From contig JAIEMP010000020.1 in NCBI GenBank assembly GCA_019752045.1, positions 1 to 64,000 on the forward strand: a stretch of DNA of 64,000 nt, in the 5' to 3' direction. The position numbers and the translations under genes are program-made. Origin of the DNA: Chitinophagaceae bacterium. Its GTDB lineage: Bacteria > Bacteroidota > Bacteroidia > Chitinophagales > Chitinophagaceae. Position 1 is the first letter of the stretch; each line of letters starts with the position of its first letter. The notes below the pieces were generated by a model. That model was not told the origin of the DNA. It saw nothing but the letters and a program-made list of their open reading frames with translations, and did no database searches. Of this stretch, positions 59,935-63,145 are shown one piece after another.

Positions 59935-60250
59935 TAGAACCTGCTATTAACCAATGAAATTAATGGGTAGCTGCAGAACAAAAATGATCGTTCAGTTTAT
60001 CTGTTTTTCACATGGTTATTCTCTCATGGTTTATTAAGTGTTGCAGATCCTGTTCTACGTTCAACTTATACTTTCCCGTATAAACCTTCGCATACCCGTT
60101 CAAACGGCAAACCTGCCCTTTCAGTGTCTATCGTTTTAAACGGCATTTGAGTGCAGCTACATTTGATTTGAGATGGATCAGTTCATGAACAGGCTCTCAC
60201 AAAGAGTTTTATTCAGGACAGTACATCATAAATCCTTTTACTTAAAAACA

Positions 60251-61054
60251 ATGCACATGAAAACAATGATTAAAGTACTGGCAGCAGTAACCTTGCTTAT
60301 GATTTTTTTACTGCTCAGTTGCAATAAAGAAAAATCTGTAAATACCGGCCGGCAAAAAATCAGCATTTATTTAACTGATAACCCGATTGATTTTAAAGCC
60401 GTGAATATTGATATACAGCGTATAGAAGTTAAGGTTGAAATAGACAGTGCAGGGATTGAACGTGAATTTTGGCATGAACTGCAGATACGCCCCGGCGTTT
60501 ACAATATTCTAAACTTCCGCAACGGAGTTGATACGTTGATAGCGCAGGGCTATATACCCGGAGGTGAGATAAAGAAACTACGTATAACGCTGGGTACCCG
60601 CAACTCAGTTGTAATTGATACTACTACTTATCCGCTGTTGTTAAAAGAACCTTTTGTGATTATTGACTTAGATGACGATCTGGAAGAAATTAATCCGGCT
60701 GAGTTTAAACTGATGTTAGACTTTGATGCCTGTGGTTCTATTATAAGAATCAATAACAACCAATTTGAATTAAGACCACGTATCCGCACATTTTCTGATG
60801 ATGATGACGGGCGAATTGAAGGTACCATCATGCCTAAAGAAGCCAGAGCTATCGTATCTGTAAAATCGGGTACACAAACCCTGCTTGCAATACCGGATGA
60901 AGATGACGGTGAGTTTAAAATTCGTGGAATAAAAACCGGGGTGGTTGATCTGTTTGTAGATGCAACGGCTAATGGTTACAGAGATACCACCATCCGGAAT
61001 ATTATTGTGGGCGACCGGGATGTAAAGCTGGGGACAATTGTGCTGAAGAAGTAA
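60251..61054 (+). CDS. DUF4382-like lipoprotein
   Basis: Lipobox 'LLLSCNKE'; 'QKISIYLTDNPIDFKAVNIDIQRIEVKVE...IPGGEIKKLRITLG'. Confidence 0.82.
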   Translation: MHMKTMIKVLAAVTLLMIFLLLSCNKEKSVNTGRQKISIYLTDNPIDFKAVNIDIQRIEVKVEIDSAGIEREFWHELQIRPGVYNILNFRNGVDTLIAQGYIPGGEIKKLRITLGTRNSVVIDTTTYPLLLKEPFVIIDLDDDLEEINPAEFKLMLDFDACGSIIRINNNQFELRPRIRTFSDDDDGRIEGTIMPKEARAIVSVKSGTQTLLAIPDEDDGEFKIRGIKTGVVDLFVDATANGYRDTTIRNIIVGDRDVKLGTIVLKK

Positions 61055-61120: not shown

Positions 61121-61161
61121 TGCTTCTTCTTTAGCCAAACTTTTATTTTCCGGAACTCACC

Positions 61162-61222
61162 GATAAAATCTGATGGTTGAACGATGAGCGCTATTATACT
61201 GTAAAAACCCGCCCTACATTTA
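61162..61222 (+). promoter_or_regulatory. Conserved upstream block and -7 box of putative sRNA 1
   Basis: GATAAAAT-N7-TTGAACGATGAGC (61162-61189), 25 bp, then TACATTTA (61215-61222); same spacing in copies 2 and 3. Confidence 0.7.
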
Positions 61223-61228
61223 CATTAC

Positions 61229-61411
61229 AGAGAGCAACAGAAAAGAATTTAAATCCAATATCTGTAAAAGAACCCAATCCAAATCCTAAAAAAGAACCAG
61301 ATCCAAATCCAAGTCCTTGAAAAACCAATGAGTTACCGGACCCCTGAAACATCAACATCAGGAAACCCTACAACCACAATAAGTCCCGCCAAAAGCGGGG
61401 CTATTTTTTTA
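61229..61411 (+). ncRNA. Putative small RNA, copy 1 of a three-gene tandem family
   Basis: Shared body (acagagagcaacagaaaa, ccaatccaaatcc repeats, accggacccctgaaacatcaacatcaggaaaccc) ending in tcccgccaaaagcggggctattttttt. The 5' end is inferred from the -7 box. Confidence 0.65.
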
Positions 61412-61543
61412 TGATCATCATCCGGGATCATTTAGATTTTACTTTTTAGCTAAACTCCTGTTTTCAGGATCTCACCGATAAAATAAGTATGTTGAACGAT
61501 GAGCTCTTAACAGCAACAACAACCTGCTTTATATTTACATTAC

Positions 61544-61749
61544 AGAGAGCAACAGAAAAAAGTAAATCCAATACCTGTAAAAAGAACCCAATCCAAATCC
61601 TGTAAAAGAACCAGATCCAGATCCTAAAAAAGAACCCAATCCAAATTCATGACCTTGAAAAACCTATGAGTTACCGGACCCCTGAAACAACAACATCAGG
61701 AAACCCAACAACCACTATAAGTCCCGCCAAAAGCGGGGCTGTTTTTTTA
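61544..61749 (+). ncRNA. Putative small RNA, copy 2
   Basis: Same upstream block (61477-61504), -7 box TATATTTA (61530-61537), repeat-rich body and terminator gtcccgccaaaagcggggctgttttttt. Confidence 0.65.
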
Positions 61750-61987
61750 TAGCTATTGCAGGTTGCAGTTTTATACAGCAAAGCTTTCGAAGTATAGAAG
61801 GATGATGTCGGGAACAGCCGATTCATTTATTTGATGAACCCTTTTGCCTGATGCAATAGCCGCAGAAGCGGATTTCTTCAACCCAATTTTTATCTGAACT
61901 TTTATTTGAATGTATTCATCGATAAAATAGGCTCTTTGAACGATGAGCAGTTTTTAAATATATAAACCCAAAATATATTTGCATCCG

Positions 61988-62140
61988 GAGAACAACAGAA
62001 AATTATTCGAATCCGTATCCTGAAAGAACCAGATCCACATCCAATATCCGGAAAAACTAAAAAGCAACGTGCCCGGAATGTTTAATTCAGGAAACCCTAA
62101 AACCACAACAAGCCCCGCCAAAAGCGGGGTTTATTTTTTA
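61988..62140 (+). ncRNA. Putative small RNA, copy 3 (shorter, more diverged)
   Basis: Upstream block 61921-61948, -7 box TATATTTG (61974-61981), gaaccagatccacatcc body, terminator gccccgccaaaagcggggtttatttttt. Confidence 0.6.
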
Positions 62141-63145
62141 GGGTAAACGCAATACAGCAATCCGGCCACGACTTCCTGCGAGGTAAACAGCCTTCCCTTT
62201 TTTTGCCTTACGCACCACATGAAAACCTGTTGTTGAAATGTTGCTCCAGTTCATGCCGCCATCTTCACTTACATCCACACCGGTAATACCACAGGTAATT
62301 AATTTTGATTTAGACATATATTCAACACAACTTCTGTAACCAAAGGGTGGAGTAGTGGGTGCAACAAAAGTTTTACCTCCATCTTTTGAAAGCACACAAT
62401 TTTTTTCAGTTGAAGTGGCATTGCTGAAATCGCCGCCAACAATCACAAATGTTTTTTTATCCCATACAGCAATGGAGTTAGCACCGGTACTTTCTTTTCC
62501 CTGCAGAATGGGTAAATCAATTTTCTGATCACGGATAAATAACCTCGACCGAGTGCCACCTGTTATAAAACAAGCTTCATCTTTTGCCAGCTTCCTTACA
62601 TTGGTGCCGCTGCTGGCAAACATCGCTTCGCCTTTTTCGGCGGTGGGATAATAAGCATCCGGTAAACCACGCCAATGTTCACCAGCATCAAATGTTCGTG
62701 CAATAAAAATTTTACCATCAATGGGATCGCCAATCACAATACCGCTCATTTCATTCCAGAATTCCATGGCATCTAAAAACATTCCCGGTCGTTTATCTTC
62801 ATAAACTTTCTTCCATGTTTTTCCTGCATCTGTTGTTTTTAAAATTACAGCAGGTGTATCAATCCCCATGATGATGGCTGTCTTTGCATCAAAGGCTTCA
62901 ATATCTCTGAAATCTGTTTTTTGATATCCCGGTACATTCATCCAGGAAAATGTTTTTCCTCCATTGGTTGAAAGCGCAACCGTTCCATTACTTCCGCTTG
63001 CCCAAACTATATTGTCATTCACTACACTCAACCCACGGATTGAAACGGTTTTATTACTATCGAGTATTTGAATGGATTGTGCTGATAGTTGTAAACTGTA
63101 CACTGCAAGCAAAACACAAAAAAGAAATTGTTTCATATTTTTCAA
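62138..63145 (-). CDS. Ycf48/BNR-like beta-propeller secreted protein
   Basis: Repeated 'NGGKTFSWMNVPG', 'TTDAGKTWKKVYE', 'TFDAGEHWRGLPD', 'SKDGGKTFVAP', 'SEDGGMNWSNIS'; signal peptide. Confidence 0.85.
   Translation of the reverse strand: MKNMKQFLFCVLLAVYSLQLSAQSIQILDSNKTVSIRGLSVVNDNIVWASGSNGTVALSTNGGKTFSWMNVPGYQKTDFRDIEAFDAKTAIIMGIDTPAVILKTTDAGKTWKKVYEDKRPGMFLDAMEFWNEMSGIVIGDPIDGKIFIARTFDAGEHWRGLPDAYYPTAEKGEAMFASSGTNVRKLAKDEACFITGGTRSRLFIRDQKIDLPILQGKESTGANSIAVWDKKTFVIVGGDFSNATSTEKNCVLSKDGGKTFVAPTTPPFGYRSCVEYMSKSKLITCGITGVDVSEDGGMNWSNISTTGFHVVRKAKKGKAVYLAGSRGRIAVLRLP

Follow-up and report, generated by a model that had tools for sequence, protein, structure and literature searches.

Three tandem predicted small RNA genes in a Lacibacter genome and their probable kinship to an AUCC-repeat RNA class of Chitinophagaceae

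Architecture of the three-unit array

The window, the whole 64-kb stretch of Lacibacter DNA that was analysed, contains three tandem, diverged units (W1, W2, and W3), which were identified by direct reading and a repeat search. The array is flanked on the left by a DUF4382 protein gene (60173..61054, plus strand) and on the right by a convergent YCF48/BNR-type protein gene (62138..63145, minus strand), and both neighbours served as syntenic anchors. All three units lie on the plus strand and follow the same order, namely GATAAAAT-N7-TTGAACGATGAGC, a 25-bp gap, a TAnnTTT(A/G) -7 box, an AUCC-rich body, and a terminator composed of CCCGCCAAAAGCGGGG and a U-run. The GATAAAAT-N7-TTGAACGATGAGC element was 28 bp long in each copy and its distance to the -7 box was exactly 25 bp, which bears out the three-copy layout described in the initial annotation. 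The exact 13-mer TTGAACGATGAGC occurred at only three sites in the 4.16-Mb genome, all of them in the array. The window contains CCCGCCAAAAGCGGGG at three sites only (61385, 61723, and 62114), and the proposal of a common terminator stem-loop with a U-run also held. The chance expectation of CCCGCCAAAAGCGGGG was 0.02 at two mismatches or fewer, and none of the shuffles gave three sites.

In W1, the upstream element (61162..61189), a putative regulator site conserved in a second Lacibacter genome, is followed 25 bp later by the -7 box TACATTTA (61215..61222), which is of the Bacteroidota sigma-A type. The predicted sRNA of about 183 nt (61228..61410), whose start was inferred from the -7 box, includes 24-nt AUCC/GAACC repeat units (61265..61308; repeat search and spacing analysis), a CCTGA...TCAGG hairpin (61343..61362), and a predicted intrinsic terminator (61385..61410). 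W2 consists of the upstream element (61477..61504), the -7 box TATATTTA (61530..61537), and a predicted sRNA of about 206 nt (61543..61748) with three 24-nt AUCC/GAACC repeat units found by repeat search (61579..61646) and a predicted terminator (61723..61748). W3 has its upstream element at 61921..61948, the -7 box TATATTTG at 61974..61981, and a predicted sRNA of about 154 nt (61986..62139) ending in a predicted terminator (62114..62139).

The repeat search showed that the copy number of the 24-nt internal repeat differed between units, confirming the varying repeat number of the bodies, and the two AUCC of a pair stood 6 nt apart, the pairs recurring with a period of 24 nt. The body features first described as common to all copies were only partly so. 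The word gaaccagatcc was present in W1, W2, and W3, but caatccaaatcct was confined to W1 and W2, and the CCTGA...TCAGG hairpin was clean in W1 and W2 only, with an imperfect CCCGGAA/TTCAGG in W3. The CAATCCAAATCCT word was also absent from W3. The units displayed a C/G ratio of 1.6-2.4 and little structure, and the bodies gave no better folds than shuffled controls (z 0.1 to 0.9). Two to four GGA motifs were read in each unit, and they do not lie in repeated loops.

Conservation of the array within Lacibacter

The genome sample comprised 14 genomes for the genus Lacibacter and about 400 for Chitinophagaceae, and the first search covered 61 genomes. Among these 61, a single other genome (G012, same genus) carried full units. 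Its three units (G1, G2, and G3) are flanked, like the window array, by the DUF4382 gene and the YCF48-type gene, and the distance from the upstream element to the -7 box was 25 bp in all six units of the two genomes. Homologous promoter-to-terminator units, which the initial annotation had proposed to look for in relatives, were thereby found. The YCF48 gene was present in all 12 remaining genus genomes. When the genus genomes were scanned with a model of the upstream element (R2), units were detected in the window genome and G012 only and in none of the other 12; the intergenic stretch read in G009, G010, and G011 lacked the array unit in each case. Of all genomes searched, only two, both Lacibacter, carry units of the window type, which are not Chitinophagaceae-wide by themselves.

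Several other candidate relationships were discarded. Weak family matches of R2, which models the window promoter, had E-values of 1e-4 to 1e-3, only rough as for all three models used (R1-R3), and resembled ordinary promoters or unrelated sequence. A model of the 3' end and terminator (R1) matched 184 of 299 genomes with low scores that came mostly from a terminator-like hairpin and U-run; these matches were judged mostly chance and were left unused. Phage and plasmid records gave no match to the array, and such an origin was dropped. A scan of the window against Rfam 15 at the gathering score returned no matching family, and the array stays undescribed with respect to Rfam 15 and the open-licence papers searched.

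Identity across the units was 72% in the upstream box and 79% around the -7 box and 5' end; it was lower in the body (58%), reached 84% in the terminator, and fell to 29% directly past the terminator U-run. Hairpin covariation within the W and G units was negligible. W3 and G2 formed one clade, with W1, W2, G1, and G3 outside it, which implies that at least two unit types existed in the array before the species split and that reshuffling followed. A conserved reading frame, which would have spoken against RNA genes, was sought across the six units and none was found. A coding origin was rejected because the units differ by frame-breaking indels of 8, 23, 2, and 7 nt and have no start codon in common. 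The syntenic three-unit array of G012, the end of conservation at the U-run, and the lack of a conserved open reading frame support the original proposal of independent sRNA genes under selection. W1-W3 are very likely to be real sRNA genes, and the sequence evidence argues strongly for three tandem non-coding RNA genes of about 155-205 nt, each with its own predicted promoter and terminator. A search for Lacibacter transcriptome data returned none.

The AUCC-repeat RNA class and its relation to the array

Weak blast matches to the array in other genera were intergenic AUCC/GAAAACC repeat RNAs with terminators of their own. A pattern search turned up further loci of this class in the family, and in several of them two to four units stood in tandem. 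As a class marker, the loose pattern ATCC..GAAAAACC..ATCC was rejected, since it also hits coding DNA: each of the 18 loci inspected beyond the family fell within a long open frame. Its bare counts were discarded. Class RNAs are characterised by AUCC and GAAAACC motifs, often by an intrinsic terminator, and sometimes by tandem arrangement. AUCC spacings of 6-8 nt were observed 97 times versus 37 expected (2.6-fold), and spacings of 21-26 nt 120 times versus 70 expected (1.7-fold). Apart from the stem arm and an ACCGTCC box, the widely shared body words consisted of short motifs, ATCCAA and GAAAAACC among them.

The promoters of 35 class units aligned nearly gap-free in the order TAC(G), GGTAnnTACCGA, a GAGCA-N4-TGCTC-like box merging into a -33 TTG, 20 bp, TAnnTTTGT, and CAGAAGTTGATTGAT. 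The promoter module was tested in the form GGTAnnTACC, TGCTCTTG, N20, TAnnTTTG. A class promoter model built with the window left out (R3) matched 170 of 397 family genomes, which represent 47 of 104 genera; single genomes carried as many as 10 copies. In a scan with taxonomy, 103 DNA stretches were obtained, and most of those named to a family belonged to Chitinophagaceae or Chitinophagales. At least three ATCC followed within 350 nt of the promoter in 80 of 91 matches. Most class RNAs share the promoter module and a long-range 5' stem, in which the initial 13-17 nt are predicted to pair with a stretch further inside the RNA; the median score of this stem was 29, compared to 16 in shuffled regions (shuffled maximum 24), and several variants covaried. 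Terminator-like sites were present in 53 of 109 class units but in no shuffled control, and they place the median RNA length near 294 nt. In those class loci that were scanned against Rfam, no family matched the class RNAs, and the sole matches came from one RNase P gene and one tRNA gene.

The window's genome contains a class member of its own, detected as one R3 match (G000:C5:80999-81098, minus strand; locus L221) beside a cystathionine beta-synthase (CBS) gene. L221 is a long AUCC-repeat RNA gene with a class promoter, downstream of the CBS gene and adjoining a B12-binding-like gene. Its orthologues among L222-L229 occupy the same position in other Lacibacter, and CBS-linked tandem arrays were seen in other genera (e.g., L153 and L154). 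At L159, L169, and L170, apparent AUCC-repeat leaders lead directly into small genes for proteins of about 140-150 aa, one of which had a sub-threshold HATPase_c match; an S-adenosylhomocysteine hydrolase-like gene is convergent to the leader and small gene in L159 and L169. The shorter class RNAs L305, L257, and L291 (about 250-300 nt) have ACCGTCC in common, CCCGTTTTT in two of them, and few AUCC, and they possibly represent a more structured core form of the class. An apparently orthologous AUCC-rich RNA of L. cauensis (L042) and L. luteus (L163) contains 10-16 AUCC and a CCCCCGG terminator, and its promoter is a different one. In the promoters of L153-L158, L160, and L221, the palindromes CGTA-N4-6-TACG, GGTAnnTACC, and GAGCA-N4-TGCTC are stacked upstream of the -7 box, an arrangement that suggests one or more dimeric regulators common to the class.

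The window units resemble class members such as L154, L153, L221, and L305 in their AUCC pairs with a period of about 24 nt, GAAAACC motifs, tandem arrangement, intrinsic terminators, and sigma-A -7 box. A 5-mer model whose training set was class RNAs from outside the genus gave W1 the top score of the 64-kb window, and W1, W2, and W3 each exceeded all 300 dinucleotide shuffles (z 4.3, 4.2, and 3.1). Both k-mer content and AUCC spacing (6-8 nt and about 24 nt) agreed with class bodies. However, of the class promoter module only the -7 box was present in the window units; GGTAnnTACC, GAGCA-N4-TGCTC, and the -33 TTG had no recognisable counterpart. R3 did not detect the units (best in-register match 5.3 bits, with a rough E of 1.1), nor did a class promoter position matrix, and homology between the two promoters was left as unsupported. 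Where the class stem has 13-17 bp, a possible UUACAG/CUGUAA stem of 6-7 bp was read at the 5' end of W1, W2, G1, and G3; it is also predicted by folding of W1 and is missing in W3 and G2. The activator site that had been proposed upstream is plausible, given class palindromic boxes at a similar distance from the -7 box, but the window element had no statistical match to those boxes. A body that fits, a promoter that does not, and a 5' stem that is at best short make kinship likely, short of proven. W1-W3 are likely members of the AUCC-repeat class, and the array is probably a divergent Lacibacter-lineage branch of it, as judged at the level of the bodies.

Proposed function and alternative explanations

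We propose that a regulator acting at the common upstream element would turn on all copies together. The G-poor, mostly unpaired body would present AUCC pairs about 6 nt apart, repeated every 24 nt or so, with GAACC or GAAAACC between them, and these modules could serve as many equivalent docking sites. Such sites may titrate a single-stranded-RNA-binding protein, as CsrB and RsmY titrate CsrA, with the dose set by gene copies and repeat number. The short, widely shared body words of the class (ATCCAA, GAAAAACC) fit repeated short protein sites. The CsrB/RsmX/RsmY/RsmZ sRNAs are decoys with GGA motifs in hairpin loops. The window units would share their logic of many short putative protein-binding motifs per RNA, several gene copies, and regulator-driven promoters, but the motif here is AUCC/GAAAACC, and multiple GGA in hairpin loops were not seen. 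Protein titration as the mechanism is a tentative proposal that falls somewhat short of probable, and the complete explanation, with sRNA genes, a class branch, and titration combined, comes close to an even chance without reaching it.

The main alternative is that the AUCC/GAACC repeats are redundant seeds of antisense sRNAs, pairing with several mRNAs around translation starts as LhrC or FopS do. LhrC1-5 of Listeria are nearly identical copies of 111-114 nt with UCCC motifs that bind mRNAs, and there are three redundant CU-rich sites on each of the five copies; mRNAs rather than a protein can thus be the partners of multicopy sRNAs with redundant motifs, although the LhrC authors themselves drew the Csr/Rsm analogy (PMC4132741). 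The window array is similarly multicopy, with a promoter and terminator for each copy, several redundant C-containing motifs per RNA, and, putatively, a common regulator such as LhrC1-5 have; it differs in its diverged copies, its AUCC pairs with a 24-nt period, and its phylum. Among the multicopy sRNA families studied in the phylum, FopS was the closest one in the open-licence literature searched, and it demonstrates multicopy sRNA regulation in Bacteroidota (PMC11697453). Like FopS/GibS of Bacteroides, a paralogous family, the window units place an unstructured part before an intrinsic terminator, and their bodies are largely single-stranded. FopS sRNAs, in contrast, are only about 65-70 nt long, have one 5' seed and a canonical promoter, and are stated to be deposited in Rfam (PMC11697453), where the window units had no match. 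No seed-like segment of greater length is retained in the bodies; at 58% body identity it is mainly short motif words that recur, and motif number and spacing vary. The variable motif number, the kept spacing grammar, and the lack of a long seed favour a protein decoy over antisense pairing, only modestly. LhrC-type C-rich motifs target Shine-Dalgarno sequences, and Bacteroidota make little use of these. The Pfam Hfq model had no match in the window's genome, which makes an Hfq partner unlikely and counts against antisense pairing, a reading that we consider rather unlikely overall.

Two further explanations were given much less weight. The excess of C over G (ratio 1.6-2.4), the low degree of structure, and the regular spacing of pyrimidine-C steps are reminiscent of rut sites, and the units could be Rho-binding decoys or Rho-loading leaders, and some class RNAs (L159, L169, and L170) do seem to be leaders of a downstream gene. 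Nevertheless, the strong intrinsic terminators of the window units would make Rho loading superfluous, and the grammar of AUCC pairs and GAAAACC exceeds dinucleotide shuffles and is more than C-richness, which leaves a Rho-related role very improbable. A reading without any RNA function, in which the array is an inert tandem duplication or a set of decayed coding repeats, would suit the low-complexity body, the restriction to one genus sub-lineage, and the stop-to-stop frames of 39-55 aa that occur in the units. It is improbable in view of promoter spacing and terminators retained in six diverged copies whose spacers were lost, of conservation that ends at the U-run, and of the frame-breaking indels and missing common start codon described above.

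Returning to protein titration, its widest form would be an unrecognised global post-transcriptional system in Chitinophagaceae, in which multicopy AUCC-repeat RNAs, co-induced through one promoter module, titrate a single-stranded-RNA-binding protein and the window array forms a divergent branch under a regulator of its own. We regard this extension as speculative and doubtful. To our knowledge, few post-transcriptional regulators are known in Bacteroidota. No Rfam family matched the array genes or the class RNAs of the scanned loci, and the class occurs in 170 of the 397 sampled family genomes with a promoter conserved at base-pair spacing. The motif grammar, AUCC pairs every 24 nt with GAAAACC, offers a direct bait for the RNA-binding protein, and the class promoter boxes offer one for their regulator.
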